Positions 546-22,612 of a stretch of DNA of 64,000 nt are shown here, in pieces. The first letter of the stretch is position 1; every line of letters starts with the position of its first letter. Below the pieces are notes generated by a model. The model searched no databases. It was not told the origin of the DNA and saw nothing but the letters and a program-made list of their open reading frames with translations. Source of the stretch: Pirellulales bacterium (GTDB lineage: Bacteria; Planctomycetota; Planctomycetia; Pirellulales; Lacipirellulaceae); the NCBI GenBank assembly GCA_022448265.1, contig JAKVCC010000005.1:1-64000 (forward strand). Reading direction: 5' to 3'. The translations under genes and the position numbers were made by a program.

Positions 546-3500
546 ATGCCCTCCTCCGACATCATTATCAAAGGCGCTCGAGAGCACAATCTCCGCGATA
601 TCGATCTGGTGTTGCCGCGGAACCAGCTCATCTGCCTAACGGGCGTTTCGGGCAGCGGCAAAAGTTCGCTGGCATTCGATACGCTCTTCGCAGAGGGCCA
701 GAGACGCTATGTCGAAAGCTTGTCAACCTTCGCCCGGCAATTCCTCGGACAGATGCCCAAGCCGGATGTGGATCATATCAGTGGCCTTAGCCCGTCGATC
801 TCGATCGCCCAGAAATCAGCTGGCAGCAATCCTCGGTCGACGGTCGGTACGATCACTGAGATTTACGACTTTTTGCGTGTGCTGTACGCCCGTGTTGGTA
901 GAGGACATTGCTGGAAGTGTCAGCGGCCCATCACGGCCCAATCTCGAGAGCAGATAATCGCTCGCATCCTGATGCAGCCTGCGAAGGCCCGATTTGCGGT
1001 GCTCGCGCCTGTCGTGCGGAGGCAAAAAGGAGAGTTCTGCGATCTGGCAGACGACCTGCGCAAACGCGGTTTTATACGCGCCAGGGTCGATGGCCAGATT
1101 GTGCAACTTACCGACAATTGGTCGCTTGACCGGCAGATGCGCCACGACATCGAAGTGGTGGTTGATCGTTTAACGAATGGGCCCAGTGTTCGAAGCCGGT
1201 TGGCCGAGGCCGTCGAAAACGCCCTAGAGGTTGGCGAGGGCAGTCTGATCATCGCTCCCGAAAAAGGCGATGCCGAACTCAAAGGGGCGGCGGCGAGTGG
1301 GAGTCGATCTGCGCGCGCCAAAAACTCGAGCGATATATTCTTTAGCGCCGACTACGCCTGCAATCATTGCGGCGTGAGTTTTCAGCCACCGTCACCCCAA
1401 TTGTTTAGCTTCAACAGCCCTCAAGGGATGTGCTTCGAATGCGATGGCCTGGGGCAGATGTTCAGCTTCGACCCGGCGAAACTTGTCAACCAACCCAACC
1501 GGTCGATTGCCCAGGGCTGCATCGGGCTGGTGGGCGAGTGGAAGAGCCTGGGTCGTTGGAAACGGCATATTTACAAGGGCGTCGCCAACACGATCGAGCG
1601 CATCGAAGATTTGCCGACTGGCACCTTGTTGGAGACTCCGTGGGAGGACCTGGCGCCGGAGCACCAGTACCTTTGGCTATGGGGTGCGGGAGAGCAGCAC
1701 ATTACGTTTACCTGGCGGGGTGGCAAGAATTCGCAAATGCACGGAGGCGTTTTTGATGGTTTGATTCCCGAACTTCTAGAAAAATATCGGAGCGCCCGCA
1801 GCAAGAATCTGATTGCCAAGCTGGAAAAGTCCATGAACGTAATTGGTTGCCCCGATTGTTTGGGGCAGCGATTGAATCCACAGGCACGTACGGTAACCTT
1901 GACAACGACCCATCCGGACTTTGCGGCACAGCCAGCGCAAACACTGCCGCAAGTCAGTGCGCTTTCGATTGAAGAAGCCGAGAAGTTCTTTAGCGACTTG
2001 GAGTTGGACGACACGGGTCACAAAGTCGCGGTGGAAGTGTTGAAGGAAGTTCGCGGCCGTCTTGGTTTTTTAACGGACGTAGGGCTTGATTACCTTTCTC
2101 TGGAGCGCACTGCGCCGACCCTTTCGGGTGGCGAGACCCAGCGGATTCGTCTGGCCGGTCAAATCGGCTGTGGCTTGGTGGGCGTGCTGTACATTCTCGA
2201 CGAGCCCTCCATCGGGCTCCATCCGCGCGACAACGACCGCCTATTGGCCACTCTCAAGCGGCTGCGAGATCAGGGCAACACCGTCGTCGTCGTCGAACAT
2301 GACGAAGACACCATGCGGGCCGCGGACCAGATCATCGATTTTGGCCCAGGCCCGGGAGTCCGCGGAGGCGAGGTCGTGGCCGAAGGCAGCGTCGAGGCGG
2401 TTTGTCGCGAAAAGCGAAGTGTTACTGGCGCCTATCTGGCCGGAAGGCGGAAGATTGATGTGCCGGCACAGCGACGGATTGAGGACCTGTCATCTTCGGC
2501 TCCGACGCTTCGCGTGGCCGGTGCCCGCCACAACAATTTGAAGAATGTCGACATCGAAATTCCGTTGGGCGCCTTTGTTTGCCTTACGGGAGCCAGTGGG
2601 AGTGGAAAGAGTTCAATTTTTTCCGACATTCTGGTGGAGTCGTTGCGGCGGGATTTGAATGGCGGTAAGGGCGCCCCAGGTGAGCATGATGCCATCGAGG
2701 GCCTGGAGCATCTCGACAAGATGATTGCCATCGATCAATCGCCCATCGGCAGGACCCCCCGCAGCAACCCGGCCACCTACATTAAGGTCTTCGATGAGAT
2801 TCGCCGCCTGTACGCCCTATTGCCGGAGTCCAAACGTCGCGGCTATAAGCCCGGGAGGTTCAGCTTTAATGTTGTTGGAGGGCGCTGCGAGGCGTGCAGC
2901 GGCAATGGCTCGAACAAACTCGAGATGGATTTTTTGGCCGACGTGTGGATCACTTGCAATGTTTGCCAGGGGCACCGCTTCAATCATGAGGCGCTACAAA
3001 TTGAGTACAAGGGCAAGTCCATCTCCGACGTTCTCGAGATGGACGTGCAGCAGGCGCTGGAGCACTTTGAAAACATTCCAAAAATCCGAGACAAGCTGGC
3101 GACATTGCACGCGGTGGGGCTCGACTATTTGAAATTGGGCCAACCATCGCCGACCCTTTCGGGCGGCGAAGCACAGCGCATCAAGCTCGCCCGAGAGTTG
3201 GTCAAGAAATCGACGGGCAAGACCCTTTACATGCTCGATGAACCAACGACCGGCTTGCACTTTGCCGACATCGAACTGTTGCTCAAGGTACTGCATGACT
3301 TTGTCGACGCCGGCAACACTGTCTTAGTGGTCGAACACAATCTCGATGTGATCAAAACGGCCGACTGGGTCATCGATCTGGGGCCTGACGGAGGAAAATT
3401 TGGGGGGGAAGTGGTTGCCGTGGGGACGCCGGAGCAGGTGGTGGAGTACGCACTCAGGCAGTGCAAAACGCCGGGCGGCAACGCAAAATCCGATGCGGGC

Positions 3501-6500
3501 GGGCTGGCTCTGCCATCGCACACGGGCATGGCACTGGCCGGGCATTTGGGGCACCCGGGGGCCCATGTTCAGGAGCAGTTGCCTCCAGGGAAGGGGCGGA
3601 AGACCAGCCAGGCGACGCATATTGTTGTCCGGGGTGCTGAGCAGCACAATTTGCGAAATGTCGATGTCAAGATTCCGCGCGATCAGTTTACGGTTTTCTG
3701 CGGGCCCAGTGGGAGCGGCAAGAGTTCGTTGGCAATGGATACGATCTACGCGGAGGGCCAGCGTCGTTACGTTGAGAGCTTGAGTTCCTATGCCCGGCAA
3801 TTTATCGGTCAGTTGCAAAAGCCTCGTGTCGAGTCGATCGAAGGGCTGTCGCCGGCAATTGCCATTGAGCAGCGTACAACGGGCCATTCGCCCCGTTCGA
3901 CGGTGGGCACGGTGACGGAGATCTACGATTATTTTCGCATTCTTTTTTCGCGCCTGGGCCAGATGTATTGTCCCGACTGCGATCTGGCTGTAGGTACCCA
4001 GAGTGCTGACGAAGTGATCGATGGGGTGCTGGCCGAGTCCGCAGGCACAAAGTTGTATTTGATGGCCCCTGTGGAACTGCCCACAGGAAAGACTTATGAG
4101 GAATTTTGGGACGCCCTGCGCGCGGCGGGATACGCGCGCGTGCGGGTGGATGAGCAGACGCACTCGCTGGATTCTATTCCAGCAGTCGATCGCCGCCGCA
4201 AGCACAAGCTCGAAGTGATTGTCGATCGTGTGACTATTCGCCGAGCGCAGCGCGGCCGTCTGGCCGAAAGCGTGGAAAACGCGCTTGCCATGGGCAATGG
4301 TGTTTTGCATACGGCGGTGGTCGAGGAGGGAGTTCCGGAACCCCGGTGGCGCACCAAGGTGCATAGCCAACATTTGGCATGTGGCAGCTGTGGGCGAAGT
4401 TTCGAGCCCTTGTCGCCCCATCATTTTTCATTCAACAACGCCTTGGGCTGGTGCGGAGCCTGCGAAGGCCTGGGCACAGAAGTGGGCGCTAATCCGGCGG
4501 CCCTGCTCCGCAGCACACAGTTTACGCTTGCCGAAGGCGCGGTGCTCGTCTGGCCTAATATTACGCAGCCCCTATTTGCCGCAATGCTTGATGCGCTGTC
4601 GTGCCACACCGGTTTGCCAACGGATATTCCATTCGACCAGCTCACTCCTCGCCACCGGCGCATAGTACTTCATGGCACAGGAGAGGAGTGGATTGATGTT
4701 GTTTCGAGTCATGATAATAGGGCTGTGAGTAAAAAGAAAAAAAATCGAAGTCCCAAACTCCAAAACCGGTTTTCCTTTCGTTTTCAGTACAAGGGCCTCT
4801 ACCCCGCGCTCGAAGAGGCGTCGCGCCTTTCGCCCCGGCTGCGGGCGAAGCTCGAGCATTTGGTGGACGAAATCGAGTGCAGCGAGTGCGATGGGAGTCG
4901 GTTGCGCGACGACGCCACGGCGATGCGTTTTGCGGGGCGGACAATTGCCGAGTACGGCCGGCTACCGCTCGGCCAATTGTTGGCCGTGGTTGAGAAATGG
5001 AAGCTGCCTGGGGAGGAAAAAAAAGTGGCCGGCGAATTGGTCCGCGAGATCACCAATCGGCTCACCTTCTTGGTCGACGTGGGACTGGAATATCTGACAA
5101 TCGGTCGCCATGCGCCCACGCTCTCCGGTGGTGAGTCGCAACGGATTCGCCTGGCGAGCCAGGTAGGCAGTGGGCTGTGCGGAGTGCTGTACGTTTTGGA
5201 CGAACCAACCATTGGATTGCATCCGCGGGACAACGATCGCCTCATCAGTGCGCTCCACAAATTGCGAGATCTGGGCAATTCGCTTTTAGTTGTCGAGCAT
5301 GACCGCGACGTGGTGGCCAGCGCAGATGGCCTGCTAGACTTCGGACCTGCAGCGGGTCGTCTGGGAGGCGAAATCGTAGCCCGCGGCACACCGGGCGAAG
5401 TTGCCAAGAAGCGCAAAAGCGTCACAGGACCTTACCTCTCGGGGAAAAAAGCGATCCCCGTACCCAAGAAAAGGAGAATCGAGAATCAAGCAGCCAAGGC
5501 CAAGAAAGGCCGCTCCGAAGCGATTCTCAGGGTTGTGGGCGCTCGTCACCAAAATCTGAAAAGCGTAGATGTGGATATACCGCTGTCTACACTCACTGCG
5601 GTGACGGGCGTTAGCGGCAGCGGCAAGAGTTCGCTGGTGGAGGAAGTGCTCTACAACCAGCTCGCACGCATGCTGCACCGGGCGGGTACGAATCCGGGAG
5701 CGCATGACCGGATTGTGGGCGTGGAACAGATCGACAAAGTGATACGGGTTGACCAGCGGCCGCTGGGAAACACACCGACTTCTAATCCAGCTACCTACAC
5801 GGGTCTGTTTGAATTAGTGCGGCAACTATTTGCGCAATTGCCCGAGGCCAAGCTGCGCGGTTATTCAGCCCGGCGTTTCAGCTTCAACGTAAACGGTGGG
5901 CGCTGTGACGCATGCGACGGTGCCGGAGAAATTTGCATCGAGATGCACTTTTTGCCAGACGTATGGGTCGATTGCGATACATGCCAGGGTCGGCGCTACA
6001 ATCCCGAAACGCTGGAAGTGCGTTACTGCGGACGAAGCATAGCTGACGTGCTAGAAATGTCATGCGGCGATGCCCTGCAGCTTTTCGAGAACATCCCCAA
6101 GATCCGTCGCATTTTGCAGACGCTATGTGATGTAGGCCTCGACTATGTTGCTTTGGGGCAAAGTGCAGCGACCCTGTCTGGCGGCGAGGCTCAGCGGGTA
6201 AAACTCGCCGCAGAATTGGCCCGTCCCGACACGGGCAAGACCCTCTACGTGCTCGACGAACCGACCACTGGTTTGCATTTTGACGACATCGTCAAATTGC
6301 TCGACGTGCTGCATCGCCTGGTTGATTTGGGCAATACAGTGGTCGTCATCGAGCACAATCTTGACGTGATCAAGCAGGCCGACTGGATCATCGACCTCGG
6401 TCCAGAAGCGGGAGCTGATGGAGGACAGGTTGTAGTGCAAGGGACGCCCGAACAAATCGTTGATGAAATTCGGAGCGCAAAGCCAGGAACGAGGAAAAAG

Positions 6501-7649
6501 AAGAAAGCAACAAAAAAGAAATCCGCAACCAGTCATCCGAAGCCCAAAATGGTCTCCCTGACCGCGGCCGCCCTGGCCCCGGTTCTGGCCGCTGGCCCGC
6601 GCAAGGATCGGAAGCTCTTCGATTTTGCTGCGGCAGAGGCTTGCCGCAAAGGTGATTTGGAGATTAACCAGCTTGGCGAGAACGTGAAAATGCCGTGGGA
6701 GACCGACGGGCGCCGCTGGCATACGCGTGATCGCGTTAGTCGAGCGGGAGAGACTTGCCATTGGGACGGCAAGCTCCTGGATGCGATCGAACGTCGTGTT
6801 CAGGAACTGGGAGAATTCAGTCCAACCAATTGGAATTCGCGTACCATTGTCGAAGTGGCAGCATCTAAGAAAAGTGATGGCTGGTTTTTCCACGCCATTA
6901 CGGGCGAGCCGTGGCTGCTGAAACTTAAGTTTCGCACCGCCAAAAAGACATTCCAGCGCGACCAGCTAATGGTTGACCTTGATCTCAAGTCGCTAAACGA
7001 CATGCCTGAGGTCGAGTCCTATGGTCATGGCCCACGGATCAAATGCAAGAATTTGCGTGGCCCATGGCAGGAAGTGCAGATTGCTGCGTACAGCCGCGCC
7101 GAGCTCGACACGCCAGCGTTTTGGTCGTTTGTCGAAAAGGCTGTGGCCGGCTTCCAGAAATTTACCGACCGCGTCGAGCAAAATTGTGAGGACGTAATGC
7201 CATGGAAGGTACTGGGACGCCGTTGGCACCTGGCTCGCAAGGGTTTTCCACCGGGCAAGAGACCCAAATGGCCGGCGGAAGTGCTGGAAGATTTGCTGGA
7301 AAACCTGGGGGAAGTTGCTGGCGTCGAGGCCGATGGTTCGCAGTTTCTTTGGAATAACCAGCAGGTAGTTCATTTGCGCGTGGCCGGTCAGCGCGAGCCA
7401 TGGGCTACCGTTTACACGAAGCGCTTAGCGGGCGTCGACCTCGTGCTGAGCGGCCCATGCGGAGCGTTTGCCTCGGGCCGTATCGCCAGCTTGGCGGCCG
7501 AGCGGGCGATACGTGGGGGCGAAAATCTTGACCAGGTGAAGCTCCGCTTCATCAAGCCCGAGGATCTTAGTCCCGCCGCGCTCGCAGAGTTCCTGGGCGA
7601 ACATCTGGAGGCGGTACGTGGCGTGGCATCGGAAGCAACGACTAACTAG
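546..7649 (+). CDS. uvrA: Tandem-fused excinuclease ABC subunit A (UvrA-UvrA) with repeated C-terminal extension
   Basis: UvrA is the damage-sensing ATPase of nucleotide excision repair and normally acts as a dimer of about 940-residue chains. This 2367-residue ORF holds two complete UvrAs in one chain. Copy 1 has Walker A GVSGSGKSS near residue 33, zinc cysteines CWKC near 122 paired with CNHC/CFEC (272-299), LSGGETQ near 526, a second Walker A near 682, the second zinc module (CEAC/CNVC, about 781-807) and LSGGEAQ near 872. Copy 2 repeats the series from about 1025 (Walker A 1053, CPDC 1142, CGSC/CGAC 1279-1306, LSGGESQ 1525, Walker A 1688, zinc module 1787, LSGGEAQ 1878). The copies have clearly diverged, so this is not an assembly duplication. 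A lysine-rich linker (about 1984-2002) leads to some 365 extra residues with two related modules, MPWETDGRRWH near 2048 and MPWKVLGRRWH near 2218, which I cannot assign. All four ATPase sites look intact. Confidence 0.95.
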   Translation: MPSSDIIIKGAREHNLRDIDLVLPRNQLICLTGVSGSGKSSLAFDTLFAEGQRRYVESLSTFARQFLGQMPKPDVDHISGLSPSISIAQKSAGSNPRSTVGTITEIYDFLRVLYARVGRGHCWKCQRPITAQSREQIIARILMQPAKARFAVLAPVVRRQKGEFCDLADDLRKRGFIRARVDGQIVQLTDNWSLDRQMRHDIEVVVDRLTNGPSVRSRLAEAVENALEVGEGSLIIAPEKGDAELKGAAASGSRSARAKNSSDIFFSADYACNHCGVSFQPPSPQLFSFNSPQGMCFECDGLGQMFSFDPAKLVNQPNRSIAQGCIGLVGEWKSLGRWKRHIYKGVANTIERIEDLPTGTLLETPWEDLAPEHQYLWLWGAGEQHITFTWRGGKNSQMHGGVFDGLIPELLEKYRSARSKNLIAKLEKSMNVIGCPDCLGQRLNPQARTVTLTTTHPDFAAQPAQTLPQVSALSIEEAEKFFSDLELDDTGHKVAVEVLKEVRGRLGFLTDVGLDYLSLERTAPTLSGGETQRIRLAGQIGCGLVGVLYILDEPSIGLHPRDNDRLLATLKRLRDQGNTVVVVEHDEDTMRAADQIIDFGPGPGVRGGEVVAEGSVEAVCREKRSVTGAYLAGRRKIDVPAQRRIEDLSSSAPTLRVAGARHNNLKNVDIEIPLGAFVCLTGASGSGKSSIFSDILVESLRRDLNGGKGAPGEHDAIEGLEHLDKMIAIDQSPIGRTPRSNPATYIKVFDEIRRLYALLPESKRRGYKPGRFSFNVVGGRCEACSGNGSNKLEMDFLADVWITCNVCQGHRFNHEALQIEYKGKSISDVLEMDVQQALEHFENIPKIRDKLATLHAVGLDYLKLGQPSPTLSGGEAQRIKLARELVKKSTGKTLYMLDEPTTGLHFADIELLLKVLHDFVDAGNTVLVVEHNLDVIKTADWVIDLGPDGGKFGGEVVAVGTPEQVVEYALRQCKTPGGNAKSDAGGLALPSHTGMALAGHLGHPGAHVQEQLPPGKGRKTSQATHIVVRGAEQHNLRNVDVKIPRDQFTVFCGPSGSGKSSLAMDTIYAEGQRRYVESLSSYARQFIGQLQKPRVESIEGLSPAIAIEQRTTGHSPRSTVGTVTEIYDYFRILFSRLGQMYCPDCDLAVGTQSADEVIDGVLAESAGTKLYLMAPVELPTGKTYEEFWDALRAAGYARVRVDEQTHSLDSIPAVDRRRKHKLEVIVDRVTIRRAQRGRLAESVENALAMGNGVLHTAVVEEGVPEPRWRTKVHSQHLACGSCGRSFEPLSPHHFSFNNALGWCGACEGLGTEVGANPAALLRSTQFTLAEGAVLVWPNITQPLFAAMLDALSCHTGLPTDIPFDQLTPRHRRIVLHGTGEEWIDVVSSHDNRAVSKKKKNRSPKLQNRFSFRFQYKGLYPALEEASRLSPRLRAKLEHLVDEIECSECDGSRLRDDATAMRFAGRTIAEYGRLPLGQLLAVVEKWKLPGEEKKVAGELVREITNRLTFLVDVGLEYLTIGRHAPTLSGGESQRIRLASQVGSGLCGVLYVLDEPTIGLHPRDNDRLISALHKLRDLGNSLLVVEHDRDVVASADGLLDFGPAAGRLGGEIVARGTPGEVAKKRKSVTGPYLSGKKAIPVPKKRRIENQAAKAKKGRSEAILRVVGARHQNLKSVDVDIPLSTLTAVTGVSGSGKSSLVEEVLYNQLARMLHRAGTNPGAHDRIVGVEQIDKVIRVDQRPLGNTPTSNPATYTGLFELVRQLFAQLPEAKLRGYSARRFSFNVNGGRCDACDGAGEICIEMHFLPDVWVDCDTCQGRRYNPETLEVRYCGRSIADVLEMSCGDALQLFENIPKIRRILQTLCDVGLDYVALGQSAATLSGGEAQRVKLAAELARPDTGKTLYVLDEPTTGLHFDDIVKLLDVLHRLVDLGNTVVVIEHNLDVIKQADWIIDLGPEAGADGGQVVVQGTPEQIVDEIRSAKPGTRKKKKATKKKSATSHPKPKMVSLTAAALAPVLAAGPRKDRKLFDFAAAEACRKGDLEINQLGENVKMPWETDGRRWHTRDRVSRAGETCHWDGKLLDAIERRVQELGEFSPTNWNSRTIVEVAASKKSDGWFFHAITGEPWLLKLKFRTAKKTFQRDQLMVDLDLKSLNDMPEVESYGHGPRIKCKNLRGPWQEVQIAAYSRAELDTPAFWSFVEKAVAGFQKFTDRVEQNCEDVMPWKVLGRRWHLARKGFPPGKRPKWPAEVLEDLLENLGEVAGVEADGSQFLWNNQQVVHLRVAGQREPWATVYTKRLAGVDLVLSGPCGAFASGRIASLAAERAIRGGENLDQVKLRFIKPEDLSPAALAEFLGEHLEAVRGVASEATTN

Positions 7650-7894: not shown

Positions 7895-9037
7895 TTACCG
7901 CCCACCGTCTGTTGCCTGTTGCCCACGATTTCTAAAAAACCCATTGTCCCGCGATCGCTTCCACAACTTGCCGAGTACCTCGCGCAGCGAACCAGCGCTG
8001 CACAGGCGATAGGGTGAATCCTCCGGTAGCTCGCCGATCAGCCGGCGGTGCGCCGTAGCCAGGGCATGGTAGGGCATTGAGGGGAAGATGTGGTGCAAGG
8101 CGTGGAATCGCAGACCCACTGGTGCCCACAGGCCGGCAATGAGCGGATTCCGTGGGTAGTTGACCGAGTCGAGCATCTGCTCCACAAAATTCATCTCGGT
8201 ACCTGTGTTGGTCCAGCGATGGGCGCCCAGCGTTCGCAGGGCGTTCACGGTGAGGATGAAAACGCCCGTGCAGTAAGCTTGCAACAAGAACGTCCAGGGC
8301 AAGGGTTTATCGAAGATCAGGCCCCGCGAGGTGGTGAGCCGAATGGCGATAAAGACAATCCATAGAAAACATAGAACCTCTTGAAGCCGGATAGTTCGTA
8401 GCACGCTGGGGGTGGGGAGAGGGCGGATGTACATTGGGTCCATGATCATCGACGAAGCGTGACTATGTACCCAGCGGCGTACCGCCGAACTGATCCAGCA
8501 CAAGGGTGTCAGCAGGCCAAAGCGAATGACGGCTAGGGGAGGAATGACCAGCACTTGTGACAAATAAAATAAAATCTTCCACGCCGGCATATTGGCCAGT
8601 GGAATGTATTCACCATCTTCGTCGGTGCCATAGTGCTTGCGCCGATGGTGGTCCAGGTGCGTATAGTAGACGAAGCTGGGAATCAGGAAGGGAATACCAC
8701 AGAGCAAATTCCAAACTATGCGAAAGGCGGTGAATTCGCCGTCGCGTATGTGAACTAACTCGTGAATGAAGAGTACTGCTCGGTAATACAGGAGAGATGA
8801 AGCCACCAGCCCCACAATCTGTATGGGCCAGTGCCAGGAGACGTTTGAGGTAATGGTCTCGGGAAATAGTACCCATCCAAAGAAGAATACACCGGCGGCC
8901 ATGCTCAGTAAGAAGTCGGGCCAATAGATCCATGGATTGGGACGGAAGAACTCGCCCACGATTCGCCGCGCTTCAGCGAGCGAGAACTCGTTGTTAGCGA
9001 GGGGGGTGCAGGTTGCTACGGTTGACGGCTCTGCCAT
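7895..9037 (-). CDS. Membrane fatty acid desaturase family protein
   Basis: This is an integral-membrane di-iron desaturase or hydroxylase that would introduce a double bond (or hydroxyl) into a lipid acyl chain. The three histidine boxes are visible in order: HELVH, HLDHH and HALHH, with an extra GAHRW motif before the last. Several hydrophobic spans lie between them, including one close to the N-terminus (WIYWPDFLLSMAAGVFFFGWVLF). The track starts at a TTG (9088); I prefer the ATG at 9037 (MAEPSTVATC), giving 380 residues, though the Shine-Dalgarno there is weak. It is divergent from the degenerate ketoacyl-synthase gene, so a shared role in lipid modification is possible but unproven. Substrate and regiospecificity cannot be read from the sequence. 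Confidence 0.85.
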   Translation of the reverse strand: MAEPSTVATCTPLANNEFSLAEARRIVGEFFRPNPWIYWPDFLLSMAAGVFFFGWVLFPETITSNVSWHWPIQIVGLVASSLLYYRAVLFIHELVHIRDGEFTAFRIVWNLLCGIPFLIPSFVYYTHLDHHRRKHYGTDEDGEYIPLANMPAWKILFYLSQVLVIPPLAVIRFGLLTPLCWISSAVRRWVHSHASSMIMDPMYIRPLPTPSVLRTIRLQEVLCFLWIVFIAIRLTTSRGLIFDKPLPWTFLLQAYCTGVFILTVNALRTLGAHRWTNTGTEMNFVEQMLDSVNYPRNPLIAGLWAPVGLRFHALHHIFPSMPYHALATAHRRLIGELPEDSPYRLCSAGSLREVLGKLWKRSRDNGFFRNRGQQATDGGR

Positions 9038-9500
9038 CGTCCCGGTTGGCCCCAGCGTTATTGAGGAAGACTCGTCAGAAGCTGCCAACAGAAATCTCCC
9101 AGACGAAGCACATCACACGTGTCACGTGCGGAACCCGGTTCACGCCGGATTGCCACTTGGCAGGCTATCGGGCGGTGCATGAGGTTGATTCGAGTGTTAA
9201 TTAGATCGATTTTACATTGAGGGCAACGCGTTGACTAGGCGGACGGGGGCCTTCCTAGCTTGTTGCCATTTCTGCGTGCCGATAGACTGGAACCAGTTTT
9301 AAAACTTGGTTTGGGGTTGAAATCCTGGCGAATCTTGCCGCCGACCGATGATTTCGAAATAGCTTCTGGTGAGAATTGAGCCAGCAGGACGTATCCGCCG
9401 AAGTCCTGTCGCACCAGGATGCACCCTCCACACCCGTCGTCACACATAACCGCCCCTCGCCCCTTCATTGCTAGCCGCTAAACCCCTTTACTCCGCTTTC
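9038..9500. other. Divergent intergenic region with 68-bp element
   Basis: This is the divergent gap between the desaturase and the ketoacyl-synthase homologue. It carries copy A of the 68-bp element (9293-9360). The short antisense ORFs 9235..9468 and 9255..9443 cross the element and are not credible genes. I see no convincing -10/-35 pair. Confidence 0.5.
9293..9360 (+). repeat. 68-bp intergenic element, copy A
   Basis: It runs from CCAGTTTTAAAACTTGGTTT to CGAAAT and is exactly 68 bases long. Compared with copy B (25295-25362) it shares the first 20 bases with four changes, plus a CCGAC-GATG block and the GAAAT end. The middle has diverged. Confidence 0.5.
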
Positions 9501-10748
9501 ATGCAGGACGTCGTCATTACCGGTATCGGAATTGTTTGCCCCTTGGGCGTTGGCCGCGAAGCCGTGTGGTCGACGATCGAGAGCCGCCAGAGCGGTGTGC
9601 GCTTGCTGCCCCATCTGGTCGAGTCGGGCTGCCCGGTTCCGTTTGGCGGAGCGGTTCCCGACTTTGAGCCCAAGCAATATATCAAGCCACGAAAAAGCCT
9701 GAAGGTCATGTCTCGCGAGACACAGCTTGGCTTCACGGCGGCCGAATTGGCTTGGGATGATGCGAGGCTGGATGGGGCGGACATCGATCCGAATCGCATA
9801 GGTGTCGTGCTTGGCGCCAACATGTTCCGTTCGAGATTAGATGAACTGGTAGGACTTTTTCGAATGGCGGGTGCCGATCAGCAGATGGATTGTTCGCGAT
9901 GGAAGGAGGGAATGCGCGAGGTTTACCCGCTGTGGATGCTCAAATATCTTCCCAACATGACGGCTTGCCACATCGGCATTGCACATGACTGCCGTGGGCC
10001 GAACAATTCGTTGATCCAAGGCGATGTTTCCAGTTTGAATGCAATTGTCGAGGCGGCTAATGTTATTGCGCGCGGGCATGCCGAGGTAATGATTACCGGC
10101 GGTGCGAGCTCGTTGCTAGCCATGATCGATTTAGTCTGGCATGGCGGAGCACGGATGTCGCGACGCCAAGACGATCCGGCTGCGGCCTGCCGGCCCTTTG
10201 ACGCGGGGCGCGACGGCGCGGTCGGCAGCGAAGGATCGGCCGTTTTGGTGCTCGAGAGTCGTGCCCACGCCGAGGCTCGTAACGCGACAGTGCAGGCAAG
10301 TCTTCTGGGTTATGGCCGCCGAACCGAACCATGCGCCACAAGCCAACAGCCGACTGGCCAAGCGATTAGCCAGGCCATCGAAGCTGCGCTTGCCTCGGGC
10401 AATGTTCCGGCAAGCGAAGTCGGGCATGTGAACGCGCACGGGTTGAGTACTCAGGAAGATGATATCATCGAGGCTCGAGCCATCGCTGAGACAATGGGCG
10501 ACGTGCCGGTTACGGCGCCAAAGAGCTTGATGGGAAATATCGGCGCAGCGGGCGGCGCGGCGGAATTGGCGATCAGCCTACTAGGCTTGCAGCGGGGAGT
10601 GGTCGTGCCGACATTGAATTACAAAAAACCTGATCCAGCCTGTCCGGTCCACGTCGTGACCGAGGCTCAGCCAGCCCGTTCACCCGTCGTACTCGCACTC
10701 AACCACAAATTAACAGGCCAGGCCGTGGCTCTCCTGGTCAGCACATAG
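9501..10748 (+). CDS. Beta-ketoacyl-ACP synthase homologue (FabF fold) with altered active site
   Basis: FabF-type enzymes condense malonyl-ACP with an acyl chain using a Cys-His-His triad. This 415-residue protein has the whole thiolase-fold layout (MQDVVITGIGIVCPLG start, LPNMTACHIGIAHDCRGPN, VNAHGLSTQEDD, KSLMGNIGAAGG). The segment aligning with FabF ATACTSG reads IQGDVSS, so the nucleophilic Cys is Asp. The first His survives in NAHG, but the second (KSxxGH) is Asn in KSLMGN, and the C-terminal FGFGGTN loop is NHKLTGQ. It is therefore unlikely to condense normally. It may be a decarboxylase-like or chain-length-factor-like partner, or a structural homologue. The track start (9468) adds 11 unlikely residues; I use the ATG at 9501. 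No acyl carrier protein gene is adjacent. Confidence 0.85.
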   Translation: MQDVVITGIGIVCPLGVGREAVWSTIESRQSGVRLLPHLVESGCPVPFGGAVPDFEPKQYIKPRKSLKVMSRETQLGFTAAELAWDDARLDGADIDPNRIGVVLGANMFRSRLDELVGLFRMAGADQQMDCSRWKEGMREVYPLWMLKYLPNMTACHIGIAHDCRGPNNSLIQGDVSSLNAIVEAANVIARGHAEVMITGGASSLLAMIDLVWHGGARMSRRQDDPAAACRPFDAGRDGAVGSEGSAVLVLESRAHAEARNATVQASLLGYGRRTEPCATSQQPTGQAISQAIEAALASGNVPASEVGHVNAHGLSTQEDDIIEARAIAETMGDVPVTAPKSLMGNIGAAGGAAELAISLLGLQRGVVVPTLNYKKPDPACPVHVVTEAQPARSPVVLALNHKLTGQAVALLVST

Positions 10749-16201: not shown

Positions 16202-17242
16202 ATGACCGCCGCTCTAAAGCCTGCTGCTCCTAGGGTTGCCCTGGGTTCGTCCGTCGGCAGTTTGCCTGCTCGGATGAAGGTGCTGTATATCACGACGCTT
16301 CATCGGACGGGTGGGTGGTTGACTGAGGCGTTTGCTTCCGACAGCGCTTCCCAGATTTTGCTCGAAGAGGTTGTGGGCGTGACGGCTGGCCTAGCTCGGC
16401 TTCGCGACGAGGTCTTCGACGCAGTGCTCGTCAGCCACGAACCGGGCGTACTCGATGCACTCGATTTGGTGGAGGGCTTGCGAGGTGGTGGCAACGACGA
16501 ACCCGTTATTCTGCTTGGTTCCGAGCCTGCGCAGCAAGTCGATGCAGTAGGCTATGAGGTGGGTGCTGACGATTATTGTTGCGTCGCCGAGACGACCGTA
16601 CGAGGCCTGCTCTGGAAGTTCGCACGTGCTATCGAACGCCATCAACTGGTACGAGAAAACCGTCGACTGGTGCAGGCGGATCGGCAGCGCTTGCAACAAG
16701 AGCATCATGAAGCCGAAAGGCTACTGGACCAACAGCGTGCCCTGATTGATGACTTGGAGAACCTCGACGAGGGGAAAGCGAGAGCCGCCACTCGTGATGC
16801 TTTGGCAGAAGGTGCGCCCGTCGAAGAGTGTTTGGCGAAGACGGCAACAGCCGAGGCGGACGCCCCGCTCGAATTGCCCGAAGCACTGGTGTCCCACTAC
16901 GACGAACTGCTACGCACGTATGTCATAATGGGAGTGGGCAATCTTTCGGAAGAAATGGCTGAGCTGGCCCAGCTGCTTGCCAGTTGGGGGATTTCTGCAC
17001 AGCGGGCCATGCAGCTCCATGTACACGTGTTGCAAGAGCTGGTCAACGGTTTGGGCAATCGCAGCGCCAGGCACGTCATGAATCGGGCGGACCTATTGGT
17101 GTTGGAGGTGATGGGCCACTTGGCGGACGGCTACCGGAGACTCTATCATGAGCGGAAGAATCCAGCCCGCCAATTGGTGCTCCCCGGATTCGAACGGCAG
17201 TTTCAGTTCGATGACCGCGCCACGATAACCCAGCCTCAGTGA
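16202..17242 (+). CDS. Pseudo-receiver domain protein with coiled coil
   Basis: Residues about 25-145 have a response-regulator receiver outline (MKVLYITTLHRTGGW, FDAVLVSHEPGVLDAL, VILLGSEPA, GADDYCCVAET). The position of the phospho-accepting Asp after beta-3 reads S-H (LVSHE), and the acidic pair after beta-1 is missing. It should therefore not be phosphorylated in the usual way. Residues about 145-200 form a charged coiled coil (ENRRLVQADRQRLQQEHHEAERLL). The C-terminal part is helical (LSEEMAELAQLLASWGISAQRAMQLHVHVLQELV) and ends in LVLPGFERQFQFDDRA. No output domain is recognised. A promoter 40 bases upstream supports this start. It is followed 67 bases later by the pyrophosphohydrolase gene. 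Confidence 0.75.
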   Translation: MTAALKPAAPRVALGSSVGSLPARMKVLYITTLHRTGGWLTEAFASDSASQILLEEVVGVTAGLARLRDEVFDAVLVSHEPGVLDALDLVEGLRGGGNDEPVILLGSEPAQQVDAVGYEVGADDYCCVAETTVRGLLWKFARAIERHQLVRENRRLVQADRQRLQQEHHEAERLLDQQRALIDDLENLDEGKARAATRDALAEGAPVEECLAKTATAEADAPLELPEALVSHYDELLRTYVIMGVGNLSEEMAELAQLLASWGISAQRAMQLHVHVLQELVNGLGNRSARHVMNRADLLVLEVMGHLADGYRRLYHERKNPARQLVLPGFERQFQFDDRATITQPQ

Positions 17243-20155: not shown

Positions 20156-21316
20156 TCATTGCTTCATAAACTTGGCATTCGCAGTCGTATCGGGCGGACC
20201 ATAATCGTAAATGCGGTAGCCCTTGGTAATTTTAGCTCCGCCTTTCTTAAGCGTTTTGTATGAAAGGTCGTTGCTCTCCAGCACCCAAGAGAACTCCGCT
20301 TCCTGGATGCCCCATTTTAGCACGTCAGGCACGAGCCGTGATACGAGGGCCAGTCCGATTCCCCAGCTTTGGTATTCCGGCAAAACATTAGTGCTGATCA
20401 ACCGTATCTTGGTCAATTCTTTGCGATTGCGCAGTAGTTTCAAAAATCCGAAGGGAAAGAGCCGTCCGTCGATCTCCTTGATTCGCGGGTTGTAGTCGAG
20501 CAAACCAAACATGGTGCCGACCGGCTTACCATCGATCTCAGCCATGGTGGTCAGCTCGGGGACGATCATCTGTTTCATGCCTGCCGCCTGCTTTTTAATC
20601 TCACCTTTCGACATGGGCACGAAACCCCATGTCGAGACCAATGACTTGTTGTAAATATCGAGAAAGGTGGAAATCTCTTCAGCAAAGCGCTTCGTGTCGA
20701 TAATGCGACACTTAAGTTTGAACCTGTCCGATATGTTACGGGTCAGTGAGTGGAGCCGCTTTGAGATCCCGTCAAGCATGTTGACGTGTCCCCAAAAGGC
20801 GTAGAGATTCTGTGCATTGCGAAAGCCGTAGTCCTCAATCAATCGTCCGTAGTACGGTTTGTTGTAGGGCATCATGAATGAGGGTGGTTCGTCGAAACCA
20901 TCAACCAGAAGACCACATTCGTAATTGAGCGAAGGATTGACCGGGCCACGGAGGGTCTCGATGCCACGCCCCGCCAACCACGTGCGAGCAGCGTCAAACA
21001 GTTTTCCCGAGACCTCTTCGTCTTCGACTGATTCGAAAAAACCGAAAAAACCTCGTTGTTCATCGTACTGGCGATTGTGGGCGTGATTAATCAGAGCGGC
21101 GATGCGGCCACAGGGCTGGCCATCCCGCATTGCAAAAAAAGTTTGAATCTCAGCGTGATCATAGAACGGGTGACGCCGGTAGTTGAGCAGCTCTTTTTGG
21201 ACGAGCCGCAAGGGGGGAACCCAGTTGGGGTCACCTCTGTAGAGAGCCCACGGCAGGTCGAAAAAATGCTTCCGATCGCGGCGCGAACTGACGGCAACGA
21301 TTTCCACGTGGGACAT
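20156..21316 (-). CDS. GNAT-fold acyltransferase-like protein (YghO-like)
   Basis: This 386-residue protein begins MSHVEIVAVSSRRDRKHFFDLPWALYRGDPNWVPPLR, a signature I associate with a widespread family annotated as N-acetyltransferase or YghO-like. The C-terminal half looks like a GNAT domain (KPVGTMFGLLDYN, LISTNVLPEYQSWGIGLALVSRLVPDVLKWGIQEAEFSWVLESNDLSYKTLKKGGAKITKGYRIYDY). The N-terminal half (IAALINHAHNRQY, RGPVNPSLNYECGLLVDGFDEPPSFMMPYNKPYY) is the family-specific part. The substrate is unknown. There is no signal peptide or membrane segment. It is divergent from the SDR gene. Confidence 0.72.
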   Translation of the reverse strand: MSHVEIVAVSSRRDRKHFFDLPWALYRGDPNWVPPLRLVQKELLNYRRHPFYDHAEIQTFFAMRDGQPCGRIAALINHAHNRQYDEQRGFFGFFESVEDEEVSGKLFDAARTWLAGRGIETLRGPVNPSLNYECGLLVDGFDEPPSFMMPYNKPYYGRLIEDYGFRNAQNLYAFWGHVNMLDGISKRLHSLTRNISDRFKLKCRIIDTKRFAEEISTFLDIYNKSLVSTWGFVPMSKGEIKKQAAGMKQMIVPELTTMAEIDGKPVGTMFGLLDYNPRIKEIDGRLFPFGFLKLLRNRKELTKIRLISTNVLPEYQSWGIGLALVSRLVPDVLKWGIQEAEFSWVLESNDLSYKTLKKGGAKITKGYRIYDYGPPDTTANAKFMKQ

Positions 21317-21595: not shown

Positions 21596-22612
21596 ATGTC
21601 ACGAGCTCTAGTCACCGGCGCTACGGGATTTGTCGGTTCCAATTTGGTCGCCTATCTTCGGCGCCTTGGTTGGCACGTTCGCGGTTTGGTGCGCGATCTG
21701 GCGCGCGCTGTGCCGCTCAAAGATTTGGGTGCCGAACTGCACTTGGGGCACCTCGGAGAAGCGGAAAGCGTAGAGCGTGCTGGCGCGGGAGTTGATGTTA
21801 TCTTCCACGTTGCGGGCCGCATACGGGCACTCAGCAGCAGTCAATTCGAGATAGATAATGTCGTCGGAACGCGCCATGTCATGGCGGCCGCGGCTGCGAT
21901 AAAAAAGCGCCCTGTGGTTGTCTATGTGAGTTCGTTGGCTGCTGGGGGACCCAGTTATCGCGGTGCGCCGCGATTGGAGTCCGACCTGGATCAGCCAATT
22001 TCCGCCTATGGTCGCAGCAAACAGGCCGCCGAACGGGCGGCAGCCGACTTTGCTGGCGAAGTGCCCCTGTCGGTGGTACGCCCACCTATCATCTTTGGCG
22101 AGGCGGATCAGGCGAGCCTGGCGATTTTTCGTGGTATTCGCATGACGCGTCTGCATCCTGTTCCGGGTTTGCGAAAGTTTTCCGTTTCATTGGTGCATGT
22201 TGAGGATTTGTGCGCCGCCATGGTCCGCATTGCCGAAGCGGGCGAGCGAGTAGGCCAAACGGACAATGGTGCCGCAAGGAGAGGCGAAGGAATATACTAT
22301 GCGTCCGCTGAACGAGCTATTTCCTACCGCGAGCTGGGGAAGCTTGCCGGCAATGCATTAGGATGCAGCGCGATCCCGTTGCCGGTGCCCCGCGCTGTAT
22401 TCTGGGTCGCGGGCGGTGTGATGGAAGTTGTCGGCCAACTTCGGCGCCAGCCGGGGGTTCTCAATCTCGACAAGGTTCGCGAAGCATTGGCGCCTGGCTG
22501 GGTTTGCAGCGACGAAAAAATTCGCCGCGAACTCGGCTACCGGCCTGCTGCGACTCTGGAAGATCGATTTGCGGAGACAGTCGCCTGGTATCGCAATCAC
22601 GGTTGGCTTTAG
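21596..22612 (+). CDS. NAD(P)-dependent epimerase/dehydratase (extended SDR)
   Basis: This is an extended short-chain dehydrogenase of 338 residues. It has the N-terminal nucleotide-binding motif VTGATGFVGSNL, the DVIFHVAG segment, VYVSSLAAGG containing the catalytic Ser, and YGRSKQAAE containing the Tyr-x-x-x-Lys pair. Residues about 170-200 (VVRPPIIFGEAD) form the usual substrate-side loop. Members act on nucleotide sugars, sterol-like or dihydroflavonol-type substrates; nothing here fixes which. It stands alone and converges with groEL across the groEL terminator. Confidence 0.88.
   Translation: MSRALVTGATGFVGSNLVAYLRRLGWHVRGLVRDLARAVPLKDLGAELHLGHLGEAESVERAGAGVDVIFHVAGRIRALSSSQFEIDNVVGTRHVMAAAAAIKKRPVVVYVSSLAAGGPSYRGAPRLESDLDQPISAYGRSKQAAERAAADFAGEVPLSVVRPPIIFGEADQASLAIFRGIRMTRLHPVPGLRKFSVSLVHVEDLCAAMVRIAEAGERVGQTDNGAARRGEGIYYASAERAISYRELGKLAGNALGCSAIPLPVPRAVFWVAGGVMEVVGQLRRQPGVLNLDKVREALAPGWVCSDEKIRRELGYRPAATLEDRFAETVAWYRNHGWL

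Follow-up and report, generated by a model that had tools for sequence, protein, structure and literature searches.

A Cys-less ketosynthase family with a conserved acidic residue in Planctomycetota: candidate non-condensing partner subunits in lipid synthesis

The KSB locus

The window analysed here, a stretch of 64,000 nucleotides from a Pirellulales bacterium, contains a gene for a 415-residue protein, named KSB, that starts at the ATG at position 9501 (Table 1); its open reading frame (ORF) opens further 5', yet the orthologues start at this same ATG. That KSB is a ketosynthase (KS) homologue is beyond doubt, given that the Pfam domains ketoacyl-synt (4.2e-36) and Ketoacyl-synt_C (4e-20) span the protein in profile searches and that its best match in a PDB sequence search is E. 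coli FabF (1.3e-56). Against the NCBIfam FabF model it reaches 274.6 bits, far under the cut-off of 493.75, and the genome's own FabF scores 600.8 bits on the same model. The AlphaFold model of KSB (pLDDT 92.5; TM-score of 0.91 to FabF structures) predicts that the thiolase-type KS fold is intact.

Alignment to FabF bears out what an earlier note had read from the DNA letters, namely Asp at the position of the catalytic Cys, Asn at that of the second catalytic His, and an altered C-terminal loop. The Cys-His-His triad is thus absent from KSB, which has Asp175, His313 and Asn346 instead, and no other Cys was aligned in the pocket motif. Within the altered loop, Gly406 and Gln407 are nearly invariant. 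Since the signature residues recur in every close relative, the pattern can be ascribed neither to chance nor to a sequencing error; the nearest paralogues in the genome that do bear the normal triad are 33% identical to KSB.

Table 1. Features of the KSB locus and of the ceramide-type genes in the window.
Feature	Position	Strand	Evidence or remark
Membrane fatty-acid desaturase (PF00487)	7895–9037	-	Pfam 1.8e-19; start uncertain, ORF opens to 9088
Intergenic region common to desaturase and KSB	9038–9500		34 distinct regions in relatives, 199–994 bp
KSB, Cys-less ketosynthase homologue	9501–10748	+	KS domains, AlphaFold model
Asp175 at catalytic Cys position (FabF Cys163), ..IQGDVSSL..	10023–10025 (codon)	+	Alignment
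His313, first catalytic His, kept (VNAHGLST)	10437–10439	+	Alignment
Lys341, conserved Lys, kept	10521–10523	+	Alignment
Asn346 at second catalytic His position (KSLMGN)	10536–10538	+	Alignment
NHKLTGQ in place of GFGGTN gating loop (FGFGG)	10701–10721	+	Alignment
YghO/bacterial ceramide synthase-like GNAT	20156–21316	-	9.4 kb from KSB here; directly upstream in other lineages
NAD-dependent epimerase/dehydratase, CerR-like (26%)	21596–22612	+	Divergent to GNAT

The desaturase that the earlier note placed beside KSB is a divergently transcribed membrane protein, for which a PDB sequence search returned no credible relative. The interval between the two genes may serve as their common control region. 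Inverted repeats shared among the desaturase/KSB intergenic regions were sought and nothing convincing was found; the 9-mer AGTTTATCC occurs in 7 of the 34 regions, the maximum in shuffled sequences being 4, in a comparison that leaves the relatedness of the regions uncontrolled. Elsewhere in the window, positions 546–7649 hold an ORF of 2367 residues that is apparently composed of two tandem UvrA copies and a C-terminal extension, and several relatives likewise have UvrA homologues upstream of their desaturase/KSB pair. Positions 16202–17242 weakly match the C-terminal domain of KaiA (PF07688) at 3.1e-4, slightly short of the cut-off.

Conservation of the acidic residue in planctomycetes

A close relative of KSB was found in 56 genomes of the order sample (60 genomes, the window genome included), and a species-level scan, with one genome for each species, gave 52 loci, nearly all from planctomycetes. 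How far the acidic clade reaches beyond Planctomycetota was probed by this species scan and by a plasmid search; the former yielded a weak Omnitrophica relative with Ser at the Cys position. One locus labelled Candidatus Nealsonbacteria (L050, JABMRB010001057.1) is a typical Pirellulales locus, on a contig that is probably misbinned.

Throughout this large planctomycete-wide family the catalytic Cys is replaced by an acidic residue: among 121 distinct Cys-less planctomycete proteins, 115 have Asp or Glu at the position, 4 have Asn, and Gly and Ser are found once each, with neither Cys nor Gln in any of them. By group, the acidic residue is present in 73 of 78 KSB proteins, in all 21 members of a paralogous group, KSA, and in 21 of 22 other family members. 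The earlier note had asked whether the Asp/Asn pair is conserved in other planctomycetes; the second His position is Asn in 58/78 KSB and 20/21 KSA proteins and varies elsewhere in the family. The acidic residue is much more strictly conserved than either the second His or the loop, Lys341 and Glu355 hardly vary across KSB and KSA, and the 50 homologues retaining the Cys also retain both His and the Lys. The loss of catalytic residues might suggest a decaying FabF pseudogene; the KSB ORF is, however, intact in all relatives, which over the order show 46–72% identity and numerous invariant columns, and this conservation refutes decay, the probability of which we consider negligible.

A function for the family was sought in the literature, which yielded only Rattray et al. 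(2009; PMC2649909), whose Table 2 includes two Rhodopirellula baltica FabF paralogues in which Cys163 is replaced by Glu or Asp. The first, NP_866153 (RB4527), shows the signature of KSA and KSB, combining Glu163 with His298, Lys328 and Asn333; the second, NP_865682 (RB3714), with Asp163 and Ile328/His333, is closer to a Roseimaritima copy (L084) than to KSB. Theirs is a passing mention for one species, without function, gene context, partner or family-wide analysis. In the literature searched we found no description of the clade, of the acidic rule that holds across it, of its two conserved paralogues, of the operon pairing with a KS or of the gene neighbourhoods; these are reported here as new.

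Phylogenetic relationships

In a tree of 85 rows the Cys-less proteins form one group apart from the condensing ketosynthases and the chain-length factors (SH-aLRT 99.9). A careful tree of 53 rows again recovers the condensing ketosynthases as one group (96/99), and in it the Streptomyces chain-length factors, on long branches, join close to the Cys-less side; joining the Cys-less group with the actinobacterial chain-length factors is not rejected (p-AU 0.34). The tree that the earlier note had called for therefore separates the family from condensing enzymes, and leaves a grouping with chain-length factors compatible with the sequences.

Chain-length factors and KSQ domains carry Gln at the Cys position, and Gln is indeed present in all four Streptomyces chain-length factors compared. 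With Asp or Glu there in the KSB family, the analogy to decarboxylating KSQ domains drawn in the earlier note fits poorly. A KSQ-like role, with decarboxylation of malonyl-ACP to prime chain synthesis, would agree with the lost Cys and the retained first His and Lys of KSB, but an acidic residue for Gln would place a negative charge at the enolate site, and most members have Asn for the second His, which together make this role highly improbable.

Paralogues and gene pairing with an intact ketosynthase

The window genome encodes five KS homologues. KSA, on contig C34, is 41% identical to KSB, has Glu at the Cys position and stands in the gene order fabD-fabG-acpP-fabF-orf409-KSA-nusA-IF2, which several relatives share. 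At loci L189, L190, L191, L192 and L194, from planctomycetes outside the class, the Cys-less gene lies directly 5' of an intact KS, and at L193, likewise from outside the class, one small gene comes between the two. ACP and FabA-like dehydratases precede the Cys-less gene in one operon at L189, L190, L191, L192 and L195 (the L195 contig ends within the gene that follows the Cys-less gene), the full order in these other groups being FabA-like/ACP/FabA-like/Cys-less/KS. These operons and the family-wide loss of the Cys lend good support to the suggestion of the earlier note that KSB has a non-condensing or partner role. The adjacent ketosynthase pairs of family f32 (L185–L188) were considered as further pairs of this kind and rejected, since both members keep an intact Cys; the L185 pair lies beside ACP and FabA-like dehydratases.

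In family f22 (L196–L198) the Cys-less gene stands alone with no KS beside it, and in the order of the window gene KSB is not in an operon with a KS. Contig C23 of the window genome carries FabA-like/ACP/FabA-like/KS without the Cys-less gene (L088, 6091–8995), and the KS there clusters with the partner ketosynthases of the other groups (SH-aLRT 98; within a 100/95 group in the 53-row tree). The simplest reading of these arrangements would be that the Cys-less member of an ancestral pair moved away and was duplicated.

The lone position of KSB in its order would also suit an enzyme with other chemistry and no KS partner, in which the buried carboxylate, His313 and Lys341 would act on an acyl- or hydroxyacyl-ACP, for example by hydrolysis, dehydration or acyl transfer. 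Such an enzyme would account for the stricter conservation of the acidic residue relative to the second His and the loop, and for the near invariance of Lys341 and Glu355. It is nevertheless unlikely, given that His313 is lost in 14 of 78 KSB proteins and the second His position is variable, which argues against a fixed catalytic set, and that a family member is paired with a KS in other planctomycetes.

Desaturase and ceramide-type neighbours

The divergent desaturase is kept in 32 of 85 KSB loci, with a distribution by identity to KSB of 12/16 at 60% or more, 5/10 at 53–60%, 13/32 at 48–53% and 2/27 below. The link to the desaturase proposed in the earlier note consequently stands as gene order; as an obligate partnership it is weakened by loci and genomes that hold only one of the two.

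In 17 distinct loci, divergent Thermoguttaceae members among them, KSB has upstream of it, on its own strand, a GNAT 32–36% identical to E. coli YghO, and in some the desaturase lies between. At L050 and L051 the YghO-like GNAT upstream of KSB is doubled, as one protein of about 775 residues with two GNAT halves. YghO is a candidate ceramide N-acyltransferase and a homologue of Caulobacter CC_1154 (PMC9386255). In its gene neighbourhood, E. coli yghO adjoins genes for an Spt-like protein, an ACP, an epimerase and an acyl-AMP ligase; the homologous GNAT is a frequent neighbour of KSB, whereas the E. coli and Klebsiella yghO neighbourhoods examined contain no KS homologue. On contig C11 of the window genome (L220, 5317–8808, minus strand) a fusion protein of 1163 residues combines an acyl-AMP ligase, an ACP and a serine-palmitoyltransferase-like domain, and this fusion together with the GNAT and the epimerase of the window predicts ceramide synthesis.

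These neighbours raise the question of an accessory of ceramide or unsaturated-lipid synthesis, in which KSB would present acyl-ACP to the desaturase or to the YghO-like N-acyltransferase, in agreement with the recurrence of both genes beside KSB and with the presence of GNAT, CerR-like epimerase and desaturase in one window. However, genomes G025, G033, G038, G041 and G047 have KSB and lack both the GNAT and a close homologue of the FAAL-ACP-Spt fusion, and G044 and G051 have the GNAT, the fusion and the desaturase and lack KSB. A dedicated ceramide function is weakened by this, and we regard the accessory role as quite improbable. Since KSB and the ceramide genes each occur without the other, KSB is better described as a general lipid gene that is often near ceramide and desaturase pathways than as a dedicated member of them.

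Proposed function of KSB

Most likely, KSB serves lipid synthesis as the non-condensing partner of a functional ketosynthase, and is neither a decayed nor an independent condensing enzyme. That it works like a chain-length factor, as the beta subunit of a putative heterodimer with an intact KS, we consider on balance probable. KSB would retain the ketosynthase fold without being able to carry an acyl chain on Cys, and would associate with an intact Cys-His-His ketosynthase, the C23 KS being the best candidate; it may thereby tune the acyl-ACP that the partner accepts, or the chain length, for membrane lipids. The heterodimer, its partner in the window genome, the part played by the carboxylate and the acyl product are all putative in this scheme, and a catalytic role that has been retained would explain the strict conservation of Asp/Glu and Lys just as well.

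If KSB is such a partner, non-catalytic KS subunits with a conserved carboxylate serve core fatty-acid synthesis throughout a major bacterial phylum, a substitution known since 2009 without a function is explained, and a tractable system becomes available for the origin of chain-length-factor-type subunits from FabF. A wider proposal, which we make tentatively and think less probable than its opposite, is that ordinary fatty-acid synthesis in Planctomycetota relies on a two-subunit ketosynthase, in which the acidic pseudo-KS copies in the fab operon and beside lipid-modifying genes would stand in for one another as beta subunits and determine the length or type of the acyl chain. Control by a heterodimer would in that case not be peculiar to polyketide synthesis.

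Comparison with known systems

With FabF (KAS II), KSB shares the fold and about 31% identity, and differs in having neither the Cys, the second His nor the gating loop and in falling far under the FabF model cut-offs. The KSQ decarboxylase has Gln for Cys and both His, whereas KSB has neither Gln nor the second His. The closest functional parallel proposed here, the chain-length factor or KS-beta of type II polyketide synthases, likewise has a KS fold without the Cys, and in other planctomycetes a family member adjoins an intact KS, with ACP and dehydratases. The two differ in the residue at the Cys position (Gln in chain-length factors, Asp/Glu in the KSB family), in the gene order of the planctomycete pairs, where the Cys-less gene comes first and the KS second, and in that KSB in the window genome is unlinked from any KS. 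Because the Gln is not shared and the heterodimer is only putative, we do not class KSB as a chain-length factor, and place it beside these proteins as a KS homologue in which a carboxylate occupies the position that they fill with Gln.
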